Positions 16,772 through 37,678 of a DNA stretch of 38,172 bases are shown one piece after another; the first letter of the stretch is position 1, and each line of letters begins with the position of its first letter. The notes under the pieces were generated by a model. It was not told the DNA's origin. It saw only the letters and a list, made by a program, of their open reading frames with translations, and made no database searches. Source of the DNA: a virus; IMG/VR virus record IMGVR_UViG_3300017770_000046, positions 1 to 38,172 of that record; one strand, given 5' to 3'. The position numbers were made by a program, and so were the translations under genes.

Positions 16772-17794
16772 ATGTCTGACAAGATTGAAACAACACTAGA
16801 TGAATCGAGCGTCACTGCTGGCGCTAAGGCAGCAGATCCTCAGGGCAAATTGTCCGATGAAGGTAGCGGTCTCGGCGGCGTACAGGATCTGGGAGGACCA
16901 ACCCCTCAGAACTCGAAGCCTGATGACGAAAGTAACAAGTACAAAGTCATCGGTAAGAGTGCAACTGCACCTACCACAAAACCTTCTGATGCATCTGCAT
17001 CCCAAGGCGGTTCCATTAAAAAGGAAGATGCTGAGGTAGAAGGTGAAGAAGTGATTGCTGAGGAAGAAGTAGTCGAAACAATGACTATCGATCTTTCCGC
17101 TGATGTTGCTGCTCTAACCGAAGGTGAAGACCTGAGTGAAGAGTTCAAGCAGAAAGCAGCAACCATCTTTGAAGCGGCAGTTGTTTCCCGCCTCAATGAA
17201 GAACTGAATCGTATCCATGGTGATTACGCTAAGGTTCTTGAAGAAGAAATTGAAACCGTCAAGTCTCAACTTGCCGAACAAGTAGACGAGTATCTGTCGT
17301 TTGCTGTCAGCAAGTGGGCTAAGGACAACACGCTCGCCATTGAGCACGGTATCAAAACCGAAATGGCAGAGAGTGTTCTGACTGGTCTCAAACAGGTTTT
17401 CGTCGAGAATTTCATTGATCTTCCCGATGAGAAAGTTGACTTGGTTGACGAAATGACCGAGCAACTTGATATTATGCAGACTAAACTCAACGAACAGATC
17501 GAAGAGAACGTTGACCTCTCGAAAGAGGTTGGCGGTTATATCAAGAATGGGATTGTGAGCGAACTGAGCGAAGGACTGTCACTTTCACAACGTGAAAAGT
17601 TGGCATCTCTTGCTGAGGGAGTTGAGTTTGATGATGAAGAATCCTTCCGTGGGAAGGTTACGACACTTCGTGAGTCGTATTTCTCTACCAAACCCGAAGT
17701 GACTACTGTCACCGAAGACGTTCAGGTTGAGAACGAGGTCGTAGGTGAGGCAATGTCCCACTACGTCCAAGCACTTTCCCGCTGGGCTAAGTGA
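16772..17794 (+). CDS. 22: Prohead scaffold protein gp22
   Basis: 340 residues (T4 269), acidic, with long charged helices typical of the scaffold core. Several matches to the gp21 consensus (I/L)xE|(A/G) are visible, including LTE|G, IFE|A, LSE|G and LAE|G. This fits a protein chopped up during maturation. It lies between protease and capsid genes as in T4. The N-terminal ~80 residues are Ser/Pro/Gly/Lys-rich and probably disordered. Confidence 0.92.
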   Translation: MSDKIETTLDESSVTAGAKAADPQGKLSDEGSGLGGVQDLGGPTPQNSKPDDESNKYKVIGKSATAPTTKPSDASASQGGSIKKEDAEVEGEEVIAEEEVVETMTIDLSADVAALTEGEDLSEEFKQKAATIFEAAVVSRLNEELNRIHGDYAKVLEEEIETVKSQLAEQVDEYLSFAVSKWAKDNTLAIEHGIKTEMAESVLTGLKQVFVENFIDLPDEKVDLVDEMTEQLDIMQTKLNEQIEENVDLSKEVGGYIKNGIVSELSEGLSLSQREKLASLAEGVEFDDEESFRGKVTTLRESYFSTKPEVTTVTEDVQVENEVVGEAMSHYVQALSRWAK

Positions 17795-17801
17795 TTAAAT
17801 A
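17794..17801 (+). promoter_or_regulatory. Late promoter ATTAAATA of gp23
   Basis: Overlaps the gp22 stop; the gp23 ATG is 37 bases downstream. Likely a major late promoter given the product. Confidence 0.65.
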
Positions 17802-17838
17802 AGGATCCACACTAAAACCCTATTAAGTATTAAAGCAA

Positions 17839-19185
17839 ATGTTCAATTCCGAATCTTTGCAGGAGAAGTGGGCACCCATTCTGGAACATTCTGAGATCTC
17901 TAACATCTCTGATAAGTACAGAAAGGCCGTCACCTCCATCCTGCTCGAAAACCAAGAGAAATTCCTCCGTGAGGAATCTGGAATGCTCAACGAAGCATCC
18001 CCAACGATGTCTGCTGGCACAGCAGGTTTCTCTGGTAGCAGCACCGCCACAGGTCCTGTTGCAGGTTTCGACCCTGTTCTGATCAGTCTGATCAGACGCT
18101 CCATGCCCAAGTTGATCGCCTATGATATCGCTGGCGTTCAACCGATGACTGGACCTACTGGTCTCATCTTTGCCATGCGTTCACGCTATGGCACCAACCG
18201 TACCGCTGGCGCTGAGTCCTTCTTTAACGAAGCGAACACAGAGTTCTCTGCTGAGAACGCAGCATCTGATCTCGGTCGTACCGCTCAAAGCGGCACCAAC
18301 CCTGGTCTGCTGAACGACAGCGGCACCTACACCGTCTCTGACGGTATGCCGACTGCTGAGAGTGAGGCACTTGGCGATGCTTCTAGCAACGCCTTCGCAG
18401 AAATGAACTTCTCGATCGAGAAGGTCACTGTGACTGCCAAGTCACGCGCTCTGAAAGCAGAGTATTCGCTCGAACTCGCCCAAGACCTGAAAGCAGTTCA
18501 TGGTCTTGATGCTGAATCTGAGCTTGCCAACATCCTCTCAACAGAGGTTCTTGCCGAGATCAACCGCGAGGTGGTACGTACCGTCTATCGCATTGCTCGC
18601 CCTGGCGCTCAGAACAACACAGCAACTGCTGGCGTATTTGACCTTGACGTTGATTCCAACGGTCGCTGGTCAGTTGAGAAGTTCAAAGGACTTCTCTTCC
18701 AAATCGAACGCGATATGAACGCGATTGGTCACGAGACTCGTCGTGGAAAGGGTAACATCCTCATCTGTTCTGCTGACGTTGCTTCGGCACTGTCCATGGC
18801 AGGTGTTCTGGATTACACCCCTGCTCTGTCTGGTAACAGCAACTTGCTTCCAGACGACAACAGCAGCACACTGGCAGGCACCCTGAACGGTCGCATCAAG
18901 GTCTATGTTGACCCTTATTCCGCTAACGTAAGTGATCGTCACTTCTACGTTGCTGGTTATAAAGGTTCTAGCGCCTATGATGCTGGACTCTTCTACTGCC
19001 CATATGTGCCCCTGCAAATGGTTCGCGCCGTTGGTCAGGACACATTCCAGCCCAAGATCGGCTTCAAGACCCGCTACGGCATGGTCGCTAACCCATTCGC
19101 AGAAGGAACAACACAGGGGAGTGGTGCTCTTACTGCAAATGCTAACCGCTACTACCGTCGTGTGCTGGTTGACAACCTCATGTGA
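17839..19185 (+). CDS. 23: Major capsid protein gp23
   Basis: 448 residues (T4 521). The N-terminus contains MLNE|A, with Glu52-Ala53 matching the gp21 cleavage consensus; T4 gp23 is cut at Glu65-Ala66, so a 52-residue propeptide is predicted. Conserved segments FDPVLISLIRRSMP, DIAGVQPMTGPTGLIFAMRS and ALKAEYSLELAQDLKAVHG are hallmark gp23 signatures. G+C is visibly higher than in neighbours, with C-ending codons, fitting the most abundant virion protein. An intrinsic terminator follows. Confidence 0.98.
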   Translation: MFNSESLQEKWAPILEHSEISNISDKYRKAVTSILLENQEKFLREESGMLNEASPTMSAGTAGFSGSSTATGPVAGFDPVLISLIRRSMPKLIAYDIAGVQPMTGPTGLIFAMRSRYGTNRTAGAESFFNEANTEFSAENAASDLGRTAQSGTNPGLLNDSGTYTVSDGMPTAESEALGDASSNAFAEMNFSIEKVTVTAKSRALKAEYSLELAQDLKAVHGLDAESELANILSTEVLAEINREVVRTVYRIARPGAQNNTATAGVFDLDVDSNGRWSVEKFKGLLFQIERDMNAIGHETRRGKGNILICSADVASALSMAGVLDYTPALSGNSNLLPDDNSSTLAGTLNGRIKVYVDPYSANVSDRHFYVAGYKGSSAYDAGLFYCPYVPLQMVRAVGQDTFQPKIGFKTRYGMVANPFAEGTTQGSGALTANANRYYRRVLVDNLM

Positions 19186-19209
19186 TCCATTAGGTTACAC
19201 ACAACACTC

Positions 19210-19233
19210 AGGACCCCATTGGGGTCCTTTTTT
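19210..19233 (+). terminator. Intrinsic terminator after gp23
   Basis: AGGACCCC, loop ATT, GGGGTCCT followed by five more T: a perfect 8-bp stem with U-run, 24 bases after the stop. Confidence 0.92.
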
Positions 19234-19292
19234 AATGCCTAGTCATATTTGCTGATTCCCTCACGAGAAGGGCGTTTGGGGTTGGCACTTAT

Positions 19293-19300
19293 GTTAAATA
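19293..19300 (+). promoter_or_regulatory. Late promoter candidate GTTAAATA
   Basis: Follows the gp23 terminator and precedes two small genes. TTGGCA (19282-19287) and TGCCAA (19325-19330) flank it as a 6-bp inverted repeat, short enough to be chance. Confidence 0.5.
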
Positions 19301-19338
19301 GAATTATACTGAACTTGACTCCCATGCCAAGGTCCACC

Positions 19339-19491
19339 ATGTTGAAGACCGATCTGCTTGCCAGATTATACAAAGAGAAAACCAAATTATACGAAGGTGA
19401 GTATGAGGGGGAACAAACTGAGGAATGGCATCACGGTGCCCACTTCGCGTATAGTAGACTATTGGATATCATTAGTGAGTATCGACAATGA
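19339..19491 (+). CDS. Small conserved hypothetical protein, 50 aa
   Basis: Chosen start ATG 19339 (MLKTDLLARLYKEKTK) is preceded by AAGG at 19329-19332 spacing well. Upstream in-frame ATGs (19249, 19291, 19324) would run through or abut the promoter element. Helical and charged; EWHHGAHFAYSRLLDII has a conserved look. Its stop overlaps the next ATG. Function unknown. Confidence 0.55.
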   Translation: MLKTDLLARLYKEKTKLYEGEYEGEQTEEWHHGAHFAYSRLLDIISEYRQ

Positions 19492-19610
19492 AAGACCTTG
19501 ACTTCATCGATGACCTGTTGACCATGCCCGAAGAACCTTCAAAATCTAAAAACATCACTGATGCTGATGCCAAGGACTGGGAAGACTTCTGGAATGGCGA
19601 AGAAGAATAA
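19488..19610 (+). CDS. Tiny acidic protein, 40 aa
   Basis: Reads MKDLDFIDDLLTMPEEPSKS... and ends with Trp-rich acidic DWEDFWNGEEE. Coupled to the previous gene by an ATGA overlap. Could be a small regulatory or DNA-mimic-like peptide by charge, but that is speculation. Confidence 0.5.
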   Translation: MKDLDFIDDLLTMPEEPSKSKNITDADAKDWEDFWNGEEE

Positions 19611-19630
19611 CCCATAACCCCTTTAATGTG

Positions 19631-19732
19631 ATGCTATTTGGAACCACGGCTGCACAACAACTGTTAACTTTCGGTTGTACCCTTGTTATAGCAACAGTAT
19701 ACATTGTAGTAATTACATGTAAGGACCATTGA
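19631..19732 (+). CDS. 33-aa single-pass membrane micropeptide
   Basis: Reads MLFGTTAAQQLLTFG then a hydrophobic helix CTLVIATVYIVVIT and a short CKDH end. It occupies the space between the acidic peptide and the gp3 promoter hairpin. No Shine-Dalgarno sequence is evident. Support is weak beyond the clean transmembrane segment. Confidence 0.35.
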   Translation: MLFGTTAAQQLLTFGCTLVIATVYIVVITCKDH

Positions 19733-19735
19733 ATT

Positions 19736-19774
19736 GAGTATGTTCCTATAAATAATTAAAACAGGAACATACTC
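19736..19774 (+). promoter_or_regulatory. Late promoter in the loop of a perfect 12-bp hairpin at the gp3 start
   Basis: GAGTATGTTCCT (19736-19747) and AGGAACATACTC (19763-19774) are perfect inverted repeats with a 15-base loop. TATAAATA (19747-19754), the exact T4 late consensus, spans the loop. The 3' arm carries AGGA (19763-19766) eight bases before the gp3 ATG at 19775. A late transcript starting near 19760 would lack the 5' arm; read-through RNA would bury the ribosome site. Confidence 0.85.
19747..19754 (+). promoter_or_regulatory. Late promoter TATAAATA of gp3
   Basis: Exact match to the T4 late consensus, and the best of the series in this window. It starts 28 bases before the gp3 ATG, in the loop of the hairpin listed separately. 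Confidence 0.85.
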
Positions 19775-20338
19775 ATGGCATCATATGGAGGCACGGACCA
19801 GACAGCACTCTGGTCTAAGCAATTAGATAACAGGAACTTCCTGTCGCCAATTGGATTTAAGATGCTACTGGAACAGTTTCCAAAGGTAGTTTACTTTGCA
19901 CAATCCGCTAATATTCCTGGTATCGGTTTGAATACCATCGAGCAACCTACGATGTTGGGACGTGTGATCCCGTGGGAAGCACATGGTTTGAACTATGAAC
20001 CATTCAACTTGACGTTCCTAGTTGATGAGGATCTAGAAAACTATCTCATCCTACACAACTGGATGCGATCGATTGCAGGTGGCGATGCATTTAGTGAGCG
20101 TGCTACTTACATGGATGATTACAATGTAACTTGTGATGCGTCACTAGCGATCATGAATAGTAATATGAGAACTAACTTCTTTGTCAACTTCAAAGATATA
20201 TTCCCTGTCTCATTGAATGCATTAGAATTCAATGCTACAATTGATGGTACAGAGTATGCCACAGCAACTGCTGAGTTTAGGTATACTACTTACGATATAC
20301 AAAACCTTGAAGGTGGACGGAGGAAAAATCTCAAATGA
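19775..20338 (+). CDS. 3: Tail completion and sheath stabiliser gp3
   Basis: 187 residues (T4 gp3 176). Segments GFKMLLEQFPKVVYFAQSANIPGI, LNYEPFNLTFLVDEDLENY and LHNWMRSI are those of the cyanophage gp3 family, which caps the tail tube tip. It shares the tube-protein-like fold with gp19, so gp19-like is an alternative label, but gp19 is already present upstream. Position between gp23 and uvsY agrees with gp3. Confidence 0.85.
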   Translation: MASYGGTDQTALWSKQLDNRNFLSPIGFKMLLEQFPKVVYFAQSANIPGIGLNTIEQPTMLGRVIPWEAHGLNYEPFNLTFLVDEDLENYLILHNWMRSIAGGDAFSERATYMDDYNVTCDASLAIMNSNMRTNFFVNFKDIFPVSLNALEFNATIDGTEYATATAEFRYTTYDIQNLEGGRRKNLK

Positions 20339-20757
20339 ATCTAGACCAAATTCGTGACATGTGGAAAGAGGATTGCATCATTGATCAAAATGATTTAGAC
20401 ACTGAAAACTTTAAGTGTACTGTGATCCACGAAAAATATTTGAATATCTGGTCTCATTTTAAACTGATGGCATCTGATGCCGACACCAAAGGTCGGATGC
20501 TATACAAAGCAAAGTTTGAATACTACTCAGGCAAAGCACCTGCCAAGGTGTATGCAGAGAAACCTTTCAATCACAAGGTACTCAAAACTGATATCAACAC
20601 TTACATCTGGGCAGATGATGAGTGGTTGAAAAACAAGCAGAAGATTGACTACCTTGATACTTGTATAAATTACTTAGAGATGATTCTTAAACAGTGTTCC
20701 TCACGAGGGTTCCAGATTAAGAATTACATTGATCTAAGGAGACATGGTGATTACTAA
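20335..20757 (+). CDS. uvsY: Recombination mediator UvsY
   Basis: 140 residues (T4 137). The segment YKAKFEYYSGKAPAKVY corresponds to the T4 ARLDYYSGRGD region, and the end SSRGFQIKNYIDLRR matches SRGFAIKHIQDMR. UvsY loads the UvsX recombinase onto gp32-coated single-stranded DNA. ATGA overlap with gp3 and overlap with uvsW suggest co-translation, so a tail gene and recombination genes share a transcript. Confidence 0.92.
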   Translation: MNLDQIRDMWKEDCIIDQNDLDTENFKCTVIHEKYLNIWSHFKLMASDADTKGRMLYKAKFEYYSGKAPAKVYAEKPFNHKVLKTDINTYIWADDEWLKNKQKIDYLDTCINYLEMILKQCSSRGFQIKNYIDLRRHGDY

Positions 20758-22213
20758 GATTGAAAAAAAGAATGAAGTCTACCTCAAAGTAACAACAGAA
20801 CCCCATGTTCATCAGGAACTGAGTGATCACTTTCAATTTGAAGTGCCACAAGCAAAGTTCATGCCACAGTATCAGAAGTGGAAATGGGATGGAAAGATCC
20901 GTTTGTATTCACCAGCAACAGGTGAGATATATGCGGGTCTTTTTGATTATCTAACTGAGTTCTTAGAACAACGTGGTTACGATTGGGAAGTTGAAGACAG
21001 TAAGTTTTATGGAAAACCAAATGAATGTGAACTACTCATATCTCCTGAGGCAACTGCGGGGTATGTTAGATCTCTGGGTCTGCCTTTCAAAGTCAGAGAT
21101 TACCAGTTACGAGCAATTTACCAAGCACTTAGGTACAATCGGAGACTTCTACTATCCCCGACAGGATCGGGAAAATCTCTGATCATCTATGCATTGGTAC
21201 GATGGCATCTGGGAATGGATCGTCAGGTTCTTATCATTGTCCCTACTGTCTCACTTGTGGAGCAGATGTATAAGGATTTCCAACAGTATGGATGGAGAGC
21301 AGATGCATATGTACATAAGATCATGGGAGGCACTGAGAGGTACGTAGATGCCCCTGTGGTGGTGTCTACCTGGCAAAGTATATACAAAGAACCTAAGAAG
21401 TTCTTTAACCGTTTTGATGTCATTATTGGTGATGAGGCACACCTATACAAAGCAAAGAGTTTGTCAGGTATCTTGACTAAGTGTCATGATGCAAAATATC
21501 GTATTGGTCTTACAGGTACTCTCGATGGTTTGCATACTCATCAGTTAGTGCTAGAAGGATTGTTTGGTAAATGTGAACAAGTTACCAAGACAGCAGACCT
21601 TATGAAGAAAGGTCATCTCACTAAACTTAAAGTAAATATTCTCTTATTAAAACATGGGTACGTTCCCTTTGATGACTACCAACAAGAGATGGATTACATA
21701 GTAAGTCATCCTAAAAGAAACAATCTAATCACAAACCTTGCGAAAGATCTGAGTGGCAATACTCTTATCCTATTCAACTACGTAGAGAAGCATGGGGAAC
21801 CATTGCATGACCTGCTAAATACTAAGGTGAAGGAAGGTCGTAAGGTCTTCTTCATACATGGTGGTATTGATGCCTATGATCGTGAAGAAGCACGATCTAT
21901 ATGTGAGACAGAAAAGGATGCAATCATTGTTGCATCGTATGGAACTTTCTCTACTGGTATTAATATCAAAAACTTACATAATGTGATCTTCGCTAGTCCC
22001 TCCAAGTCCAGAGTCAGAAACCTACAATCTATTGGTCGTGTACTCAGGAAAGGAGATAACAAAGCGCAAGCAGTTCTATACGATATTGCAGACCACTGTG
22101 CGAGAGGATCCAAAAGTAATTACACCCTTCGTCATCTTGCTGAAAGAATCAAGATATATCAAGAAGAAAAATTTAATTACGAAATTAAGGAGATCAAATT
22201 GACTCATGATTAA
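20744..22213 (+). CDS. uvsW: UvsW DNA/RNA helicase
   Basis: 489 residues (T4 about 500). An N-terminal DNA-binding part is followed by an SF2 helicase with Walker A SPTGSGKS (near residues 138-145), DEAH (230-233), a GLTGT motif III-like turn and QSIGRVLRKG motif VI. It unwinds R-loops and branched recombination intermediates and drives the switch from origin to recombination-dependent replication. Starts inside uvsY by 14 bases. Confidence 0.95.
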   Translation: MVITKIEKKNEVYLKVTTEPHVHQELSDHFQFEVPQAKFMPQYQKWKWDGKIRLYSPATGEIYAGLFDYLTEFLEQRGYDWEVEDSKFYGKPNECELLISPEATAGYVRSLGLPFKVRDYQLRAIYQALRYNRRLLLSPTGSGKSLIIYALVRWHLGMDRQVLIIVPTVSLVEQMYKDFQQYGWRADAYVHKIMGGTERYVDAPVVVSTWQSIYKEPKKFFNRFDVIIGDEAHLYKAKSLSGILTKCHDAKYRIGLTGTLDGLHTHQLVLEGLFGKCEQVTKTADLMKKGHLTKLKVNILLLKHGYVPFDDYQQEMDYIVSHPKRNNLITNLAKDLSGNTLILFNYVEKHGEPLHDLLNTKVKEGRKVFFIHGGIDAYDREEARSICETEKDAIIVASYGTFSTGINIKNLHNVIFASPSKSRVRNLQSIGRVLRKGDNKAQAVLYDIADHCARGSKSNYTLRHLAERIKIYQEEKFNYEIKEIKLTHD

Positions 22214-22649
22214 TTACATCCGACACGACGAACAATTCTTTGCCACACTTAAACTGATCACTGGGGAAGAGATTCTTGGTGAAGCATTAGTTAGTGAAGA
22301 TCCTGATACTAAAAAAGATATGATCTTCATGCAGAACCCTGCTAGAACAAAGATCGTTGAACTTGAAGTAGATTCAGAAGATGCATCCCAAAAGGTTGCA
22401 ATGGGATTCATGAAATGGATGAACTTCTCTGATGAGGATTTCTATGTAATTGATGCTCAGTCTGTTGTATCGATTGCACCTATGTCTGATGAAGCAATCA
22501 TGCTTTATAAGAGATGGATCAAAAAAGAATTTAAAAAAGAAGTACACGATGAAGCAGAGGTACCCATCAATAAGAGCATGGGTCTCATTTCTAAGGTAGA
22601 AGATGCAAGGAAACTTCTAGAACGCATCTTCAAAGATGCATCTCTCTAA
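22206..22649 (+). CDS. Conserved cyanophage hypothetical protein
   Basis: 147 residues overlapping uvsW by eight bases. The N-terminal half (FFATLKLITGEEILGEAL, later FMKWM and VVSIAPMSDEAIMLYKRWIKK) suggests a small beta-barrel of Sm-like style followed by a helix. The C-terminus is charged. The Sm-like idea is only an impression; function unknown. Confidence 0.65.
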   Translation: MINYIRHDEQFFATLKLITGEEILGEALVSEDPDTKKDMIFMQNPARTKIVELEVDSEDASQKVAMGFMKWMNFSDEDFYVIDAQSVVSIAPMSDEAIMLYKRWIKKEFKKEVHDEAEVPINKSMGLISKVEDARKLLERIFKDASL

Positions 22650-22692
22650 GCCACTTAAAGATACTGTGTTTCTGAACCCTTACAGTGTTGAG

Positions 22693-22698
22693 TATAAT
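22693..22698 (+). promoter_or_regulatory. Candidate host-type -10 box TATAAT upstream of gp55
   Basis: A perfect TATAAT in the 127-base gap between the hypothetical gene and gp55. No good TTGACA lies 17 bases upstream (TTCTGA at best). A sigma70 promoter here would let gp55 be made before late transcription. Confidence 0.3.
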
Positions 22699-22711
22699 GA
22701 TTTATTATTGT

Positions 22712-22753
22712 CTTGTCAAGCCCTTGTCACCTTGTCACTTCGTCACTTGACAA
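22712..22753 (+). repeat. CTTGTCA direct repeats and inverted repeat before gp55
   Basis: CTTGTCA occurs at 22712, CTTGTCAC at 22723 and 22731, then TTCGTCAC at 22739. TTGTCAAG (22713-22720) and CTTGACAA (22746-22753) form a perfect 8-bp inverted repeat around them. Phase is near 8-11 bases. Possible protein-binding array or RNA structure. Confidence 0.6.
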
Positions 22754-22776
22754 ATCTGTCTTGATAAGTTAACATT

Positions 22777-23286
22777 ATGTCATCCGTGAGTACCCTTATG
22801 TCTATGCTAATGCCACGGAAGAACGCCAAAAAGAAAGAACACTATGTAGATAACAAACAGTTCTTACATGAACTGATTATTTACCGTAACAAGTGTGCAG
22901 TCGCCAAAGATAAAGGACTGCCCAAACCTCGTGTCTCTAATTACATTGGTGAATGCTTCCTTAAAATTGCAACCCACCTATCGTATCGTCCGAACTTCAT
23001 CAACTACATGTACCGAGAGGACATGATTGGTGATGGTATCGAAAATTGTATTCAATACATTCATAACTTTGATCCAGAGAAATCTTCTAATCCGTTTGCA
23101 TATTTCACACAGATTGTATACTATGCATACCTAAGAAGGATTGCTAAGGAGAAGAGGCAGCAAGCAATCAGAGAGAAGATCCTAGAACGTAAGGGATATG
23201 AAGAGGTTTTCCACACAGATGACCTTGACAATATCGCTGACATGAACTATATTAAGTCTCGTGTCGAGACCAATACGAGGTACTGA
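22777..23286 (+). CDS. 55: Late sigma factor gp55
   Basis: 169 residues (T4 185). DMIGDGIENCIQYIHNFDPE followed by NPFAYFTQIVYYAYLRRIAKE is the sigma region 2 core. gp55 directs host RNA polymerase to the TATAAATA-type late promoters seen throughout this window, with gp45 as activator. Region 4 is absent, as expected. The first ~12 residues contain four Met, so the exact start (22777, 22798 or later) is uncertain; none has a clear Shine-Dalgarno sequence. Confidence 0.93.
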   Translation: MSSVSTLMSMLMPRKNAKKKEHYVDNKQFLHELIIYRNKCAVAKDKGLPKPRVSNYIGECFLKIATHLSYRPNFINYMYREDMIGDGIENCIQYIHNFDPEKSSNPFAYFTQIVYYAYLRRIAKEKRQQAIREKILERKGYEEVFHTDDLDNIADMNYIKSRVETNTRY

Positions 23287-36229: not shown

Positions 36230-37678
36230 ATGAAATTTATTGGATTGAGAGTTGAGGATCACGATTCCAACATCACCTATACCGATGGAACCAAAGTAAA
36301 GTATCTCTCTACGGAGAGATATTTTCATATAAAGCATCATGGACTAGACAATACATGGCAGTGGCAAGACCTTACTGATGAGTTGGGTGTGCATATCAAC
36401 GAAGTTGATGCCCTTTGTATTGTTAGCGATCAAGTAACCTTTGATGAGGGTGAACTCTATCGTGAGATAGATATCGGATTGCCTTGTAAAACGTTTGCAA
36501 TCGATCACCACTGGGCACATGTACTTTCACAATGGCCAGTAGGCATTCCATACACTAACTATGTGTTCGATGGGTATGGTAGTAACAGAAGGTCCCATTC
36601 TCTGTTCTTAGGTGACAACTTAGAACTGTCTCATGATGTAGATATCACAGGATCTATTGGTATTGAGATGGCAAAGGTGGGTGCTGCTCTTGGTCTTACA
36701 GATAACACTCCACATGGTCTAGATCTTGCTGGTAAGATCATGGGACTAGCAGCATATGGTATCATTGATACAGAATATGCGAAGTTCCTGGATCAGTTCC
36801 CTATCAGTAGGGTGAAAAATATCTGGAACTATGATCAGTGGACTAGGAAGTGGGATAATAATTTTGATATCAATTGGTTACGTACTGTTCATGAGGCAAC
36901 AGCAAATAAACTAGCAGAATATGTGGGTAATGGTGATGATGAAGTAGGATATACAGGTGGTGTAGCACTGAACTGTGTGTTCAATGGACGCATTACACAG
37001 ACTGGACAACAGATTTCTACTATTCCACATTCAAATGACTGTGGATTGTCCTTAGGAGCAGTAGAATTCCTTAGAAGACGCTTCCATACAGAGGAGTTTG
37101 ATGCTACTGGGTTCCCATTCTGGCAGGATGATGAAGCACCTGAGGAAGTCAGTGATGAGACTATCAAAATAGTTGCAGAAGAGTTAGCAGTAGGTAATAT
37201 TGTTGCTTGGTATCAGGGTCATGGTGAGATCGGACCTCGTGCATTGGGTCATAGGAGCATTCTTGTTAATCCTAGGTGTGAAAACATCAAAGATGTGCTG
37301 AATAGTAAGGTTAAGCATAGAGAACACTTCCGTCCTTATGGTGCCTCAGTCCTACGAGAAGACGCTCCAAGGCACTTTGATGTACCTGACGGTGCAAATA
37401 TGCCTTGGATGAATGTTTCTGTAAATGTTACTGATAATGACCTGACATCTGTCACACATGTCGATGGTACATGTAGGATCCAAACTGTTGAAGGTGATGA
37501 CTGCTATGCCAGACTATTGCGAGCATATAAAGACATCACAGGTGACAGTGTACTGCTCAATACCTCACTAAATTTAGGTGGTAGTCCTATCGCATCTAGT
37601 TTCTGGGAAGCGAAGGAGTTGTTTAGTAAAAAAGATATTGACTTTTTATGTATTGGTAATGATCTACTTCATAAATAG
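36230..37678 (+). CDS. Carbamoyltransferase (NodU/CmcH/TobZ family)
   Basis: 482 residues with both domains: an N-terminal Kae1-like ASKHA fold with IDHHWAHVLS (iron-binding HxxxH type), FDGYGSNRR and GGVALNCVFNGR, and a C-terminal YrdC-like-fold part with GHGEIGPRALGHRSIL and FRPYGASVL. The family transfers carbamoyl from carbamoyl phosphate, via carbamoyl-adenylate, to sugars, antibiotics or other acceptors. Slightly short for the family but motifs look intact. Acceptor unknown; modification of a surface sugar or nucleotide are options. Confidence 0.92.
   Translation: MKFIGLRVEDHDSNITYTDGTKVKYLSTERYFHIKHHGLDNTWQWQDLTDELGVHINEVDALCIVSDQVTFDEGELYREIDIGLPCKTFAIDHHWAHVLSQWPVGIPYTNYVFDGYGSNRRSHSLFLGDNLELSHDVDITGSIGIEMAKVGAALGLTDNTPHGLDLAGKIMGLAAYGIIDTEYAKFLDQFPISRVKNIWNYDQWTRKWDNNFDINWLRTVHEATANKLAEYVGNGDDEVGYTGGVALNCVFNGRITQTGQQISTIPHSNDCGLSLGAVEFLRRRFHTEEFDATGFPFWQDDEAPEEVSDETIKIVAEELAVGNIVAWYQGHGEIGPRALGHRSILVNPRCENIKDVLNSKVKHREHFRPYGASVLREDAPRHFDVPDGANMPWMNVSVNVTDNDLTSVTHVDGTCRIQTVEGDDCYARLLRAYKDITGDSVLLNTSLNLGGSPIASSFWEAKELFSKKDIDFLCIGNDLLHK

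Follow-up and report, generated by a model that had tools for sequence, protein, structure and literature searches.

How could a late tail gene be kept silent on an RNA that also serves the recombination genes behind it? The question is raised by gp3 in the 38,172-nucleotide stretch of viral DNA analyzed here (the window), which is part of a T4-like cyanophage genome and in which the neighbors gp23, UvsY, UvsW, and gp55 were confirmed (Table 1). The initial annotation had placed the gp3 late promoter within the loop of a hairpin hiding the gp3 ribosome site, such that late RNA would be translated and read-through RNA would be silent. Our analysis indicates that a translational gate of the T4 gene e type probably does act on this cyanophage gp3. 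In an hhalign profile comparison, the protein encoded at 19775 matched T4 gp3 (96%; E value, 5e-9); an identity as gp19 was rejected, the match to T4 gp19 having an E value of 0.91. The closest isolate homologue is an S-WAM1 protein, itself annotated gp3 and found in an identical gene order. Three small ORFs lie between gp23 and gp3.

Table 1. Features of the gp23-gp55 region, in window coordinates.
Feature	Position	Strand	Remarks
gp23, major capsid protein	17839..19185	+	
Intrinsic terminator after gp23	19210..19228	+	AGGACCCCATTGGGGTCCT, with TTTTT following; found in most members of the clade
Sigma70-like element TTGGCA-17-TATACT	19282..19310	+	Conserved TTATGTTAAATA spacer; candidate early promoter (putative function)
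55-aa small ORF	19324..19491	+	phrog_566
40-aa small ORF	19488..19610	+	Weak phrog_25333 match
33-aa small ORF	19631..19732	+	Frame conserved; ends 2 nt before hairpin
5' arm, TGAGTATGTTCCT	19735..19747	+	Predicted absent from late mRNA
Late promoter motif, TATAAATA	19747..19754	+	Invariant in 13 near relatives
Predicted late transcription start	19760	+	Placed roughly a helical turn downstream of the TATA box, from T4 spacing (PMC2988020)
SD-like AGGA	19763..19766	+	8 nt before ATG 19775; wholly inside stem
3' arm, AGGAACATACTCA	19763..19775	+	Includes the SD-like AGGA; last base is the gp3 start-codon A
gp3, tail completion/sheath stabilizer	19775..20338	+	
uvsY	20335..20757	+	Start overlaps gp3 stop (ATGA)
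uvsW helicase	20744..22213	+	
gp55, late sigma factor	22777-23286		Downstream of uvsW

The arms form a perfect inverted repeat (19735-19747/19763-19775) of 13 bp, 100% complementary, with 15 nt between them. The repeat had been given as 12 bp; its perfect pairing was borne out, and the extra pair, T19735-A19775, takes in the A of the gp3 ATG. The AGGA is where it had been placed, in the 3' arm eight bases before the ATG at 19775. The placement of the late promoter in the loop holds for ATAAATA but not for the first T of TATAAATA (motif class, PMC2984593), which sits in the 5' arm. Within the 38-kb window, this hairpin is the only perfect stem of at least 12 bp with a loop of 3 to 30 nt, as well as the longest. 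Dinucleotide shuffles yield 0.075 stems of at least 13 bp per window, before demanding that a NATAAATA site be enclosed. Given this rarity, and given that the stem coincides with one of the five NATAAATA sites in the window and with a start codon, a chance origin is very unlikely. An intrinsic terminator was rejected as a reading of the hairpin on account of its 15-nt loop and the lack of a T run after 19775, and no Rfam family matched at gathering score across positions 17000 to 23000.

We propose that a long RNA would start upstream of the hairpin, probably from a sigma70-like element near 19310, past the gp23 terminator. Carrying both arms, this RNA would fold into the 13-bp hairpin and hide the gp3 SD and start region; gp3 would be poorly translated from it, with uvsY and uvsW still served. 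A gp55-dependent late RNA would start near 19760, in the loop, and would lack the 5' arm, allowing gp3 to be translated. The earlier suggestion that gp3 stays off while uvsY and uvsW are expressed needs some qualification: since uvsY starts on the gp3 stop codon (ATGA), translation of the two genes may not fully separate. Furthermore, the 33-aa ORF stops 2 nt short of the stem, which a ribosome terminating there could open.

When both RNA forms were folded, a check that the initial annotation had suggested, the gp3 start region was costly to open in the read-through RNA and cheap to open in the predicted late RNA. The cost was 16.1 kcal/mol in a 150-nt read-through piece versus 2.5 kcal/mol in the late RNA, and 15.7 to 17.5 kcal/mol versus 3.9 to 4.1 kcal/mol for longer RNAs (270- to 714-nt read-through), the late value holding for any start from 19757 to 19764. 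The late RNA itself was calculated to fold weakly around the gp3 AUG. The hairpin alone accounts for -17.9 kcal/mol, and an 81-nt RNA containing it reaches -22.6 kcal/mol (z, -4.3), with 0 of 200 shuffles equally good.

By the same calculation, the read-through and late costs in T4 are 15.4 versus 0.5 kcal/mol for e, 15.7 versus 3.4 for 49, 14.3 versus 1.7 for I-TevI, 17.2 versus 5.6 for segB, and 13.7 versus 2.1 for 26. The proven or proposed T4 cases e, 49, I-TevI, I-TevII, segB, and 26 were all recovered, with differences of 8.7 to 14.9 kcal/mol, and the ordinary T4 late genes 22, 15, 18, and 20 showed differences of 0.1 to 2.7 kcal/mol. Given that the calculation misses T4 soc and also flags T4 53 and alt, neither known as gated, the accessibility metric is supportive but not specific. 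When 180 late-promoter-like sites in the window and eleven related cyanophage records were ranked by this difference, the window gp3 site came first; among other late-promoter sites in the same set, a difference of at least 8 kcal/mol was seen in 2 of 148 clusters. In T4 (L506-L508), genes 53, alt, and 24 have differences of 6 to 9 kcal/mol and are unlisted as gated in the T4 reviews consulted. Other late-promoter-like sites with large differences mark candidate gated genes at S-SZBM1 119984 (-), P-TIM40 161426 (+), and S-WAM1 56199 and 168635 (both +).

What RNA would carry the complete hairpin? Read-through from upstream had been invoked, but from gp23 this is probably minor, since a strong conserved terminator follows that gene. 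The likelier source is the sigma70-like element at 19282-19310, which is kept across the clade, 460 nt before gp3 and just past the gp23 terminator. We infer that this candidate early promoter drives the small ORFs, gp3, uvsY, and uvsW. The conservation of both the terminator and the sigma70-like element suggests that the RNA carrying the hairpin arises separately and earlier, running into gp3-uvsY-uvsW. An early promoter as the source would make the arrangement more like that of T4, in which early or middle transcripts run through the late genes that are gated in this manner (PMC2988022, PMC3014915). A related copy of the element follows the gp23 terminator in S-WAM1 (NC_031944, ~119944), where TTATGTTAAATA is followed by 4 to 5 nt and then TATACT; the TTATGTTAAATA-TATACT element is a candidate early promoter of an unusual type.

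An alignment of related gp3 leaders, proposed earlier as a check for compensatory change, revealed coordinated changes in both arms in two subclades. The device is present in both subclades of the gp3 clade, the upstream blocks of which are ~0.8 changes per site apart. The window type (L001-L005 and L007; also L006 and L008, in which one or two pairs are broken) has GAGTATGTTCC-TA/TA-GGAACATACTC, and the L009 type (L009-L011) has GAGTATTTC-TA/TA-GATATACTC and carries one mismatch. Pairing energies are -20.7 kcal/mol (window) and -13.1 kcal/mol (L009) for cognate arms, compared to only -9.7 and -9.4 kcal/mol for mixed arms. As counted on a hand-made structural alignment, which leans towards structure, there are two base pairs that the two arms either both have or both lack, and the outer pair alternates between T-A and G-C. 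This comparison covers only about six distinct haplotypes, with most pairs invariant and one fully compensated. A MAFFT alignment of the arms was set aside because it mis-registered the shorter L009 stem.

Relatives that keep the promoter but not the complementary arms had been named as evidence against the hairpin, and one such sublineage was found; the other near relatives keep the hairpin. In that sublineage (L172/L173), TATAAATA and the 3' arm are kept and the 5' arm is absent. Both members are nested within the L009 subclade, and at all 12 of 12 positions their 3' arm remains a match for the L009 5' arm, so the absence looks like a recent loss. A separate observation concerns L008 (contig IMGVR_UViG_3300000265_000055), which is recombinant, with a junction near the gp3 start at 721; its upstream block and hairpin are of the window type and its gp3/uvsY of the L009 type.

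Hiding of the gp3 ribosome site is predicted for the window type, in which the SD pairs with the anti-SD at -4.3 kcal/mol and is enclosed by the stem, but it does not extend to the L009 and L172 types, which have no clear SD (-1.1 and -0.1 kcal/mol, respectively). Since the window type conceals an SD that the other types do not share, what the relatives have in common is an occluded start region rather than a hidden SD. Counting against the gate are the 5'-arm loss in L172/L173, the broken pairs in L006/L008, the missing SD in the L009 and L172 types, the small number of haplotypes, the gp23 terminator, the residual weak folding of the late RNA, and the imperfect performance of the accessibility metric in T4.

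In more distant gp3 leaders, the hairpin device was not found. A claim covering gp3 in general was rejected: of 73 distinct sequences upstream of gp3, 43 lack NATAAATA within 60 nt, and in the other 30 the strong hairpin occurs in a single clade only. When viral contigs were scanned for the hairpin pattern, matches beyond the gp3 clade were mostly due to chance. With the 5' arm lost in one sublineage and the device missing from more distant relatives, it is, judging from these leaders, lineage-specific. The logic of T4 e, 49, and I-TevI agrees with the sequence, with the energetics, and with most of the close relatives, but the device is absent from most cyanophage gp3 leaders.

Short stems were observed in other gp3 leaders (CAGGAG/CTCCTG, AAGGAG/CTCCTT, TAGGAGT/ACTCCTA, and TACCTA/TAGGTA, in L012, L014, L022, L024, S-WAM1 [L242] at 2929-2973, L178, and L193-L201). 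Their 5' arm straddles the predicted late start, and some lie within the coding end of the upstream ORF. It is possible, although doubtful, that self-removing leader hairpins recur at cyanomyovirus gp3, having evolved more than once with unrelated sequences, and let an early uvsY-uvsW recombination operon run through a late tail gene; the types would then be the 13-bp stem of the window, CAGGAG/CTCCTG (the CATAAATA group), and TACCTA/TAGGTA (the L193 group). Elsewhere in the window, a 93-aa ORF is preceded, at a distance of 20 nt, by CATAAATA (37670-37677) within a 6-bp stem, ACTTCA...TGAAGT.

The main rival to the gate is translational coupling, by which gp3 on the long RNA would need translation of the 33-aa ORF, the terminating ribosome melting the outer 5' arm, and the late promoter would supply an uncoupled RNA. 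The geometry is suitable: the stop codon occupies 19730-19732 and the stem begins at 19735, the stop likewise adjoins the stem in the L009 type, and the stem, at -17.9 kcal/mol, weakens to -5.8 or -1.7 kcal/mol when 8 to 10 nt of the 5' arm are covered. We nevertheless consider coupling unlikely, given that the 33-aa ORF of the window has no clear SD and that coupling usually works without a late promoter exactly in the loop. It is compatible with the gate, and the two could coexist.

The remaining explanations are less likely than the gate. Template switching at quasipalindromes could repeatedly restore matching arms, so that mutation rather than selection would keep the repeat; known phage mutagenesis leads one to expect both perfect symmetry and coordinated two-base arm changes from such a process. 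It would not, however, lead the repeat to enclose a late promoter and to reach a start codon, and the mismatches in L008 and L009 have persisted, which makes this account quite improbable. We give still less weight to a DNA operator, at which a dimeric protein bound to both arms would repress the enclosed late promoter: a GAGTAT/ATACTC core is conserved in both arms, but the inner arm sequence and the core spacing (27 versus 23 nt) vary while complementarity is kept. Equally hard to credit is an RNA-processing or stability element, whose stem would protect the RNA or whose AU-rich loop would be cut in the long RNA to free a translatable gp3 mRNA. The loop is indeed long and AU rich, and a hairpin near a gp55 site in the S-PM2d psbA 5' untranslated region has been proposed to affect stability (PMC5931967), but such an element does not need a promoter motif in its loop.

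As the initial annotation had supposed, no earlier description of the arrangement at cyanophage gp3 was found in the open-licence literature, nor was start-site sequestration by late-promoter-hairpin logic found described there for cyanophages. The gating principle is well known in T4, and the gp3 case most likely adds another instance. If the gate is real, a classic form of temporal control that T4 has been proven to use for lysis and homing-endonuclease genes would extend to a cyanophage virion gene, and it would explain how a late tail gene can precede recombination genes possibly required earlier. Cyanophages lack the MotA middle transcription of T4 (PMC2984593). Post-transcriptional control in such phages is little studied, and the gp3 gate offers a compact, directly testable prediction of timing.

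Among known systems, S-PM2d psbA also has a cyanophage leader hairpin with both sigma70-type and gp55 sites; the role proposed there is mRNA stability in response to light, and start-site sequestration is not proposed in the text consulted (PMC5931967). The T4 gene e leader is similar in having TATAAATA in the loop or 5' part of an SD-hiding stem and a late RNA without the 5' arm, and its computed opening costs match those of gp3 (15.4 versus 0.5 for e and 16.1 versus 2.5 for gp3). Unlike gp3, gene e has two late promoters and a gating proven by experiment (~100-fold); it is a lysis gene rather than a tail gene, and the leaders share no sequence homology. The leaders of T4 gene 49, I-TevI, I-TevII, and segB and of Aeh1 mobE follow the logic proposed for gp3, with a late gene buried in early or middle transcripts (PMC2988022, PMC3014915), an arrangement that at gp3 is predicted. 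Those five genes encode nucleases, whereas the window gp3 has a structural role and precedes recombination genes in a cyanophage.
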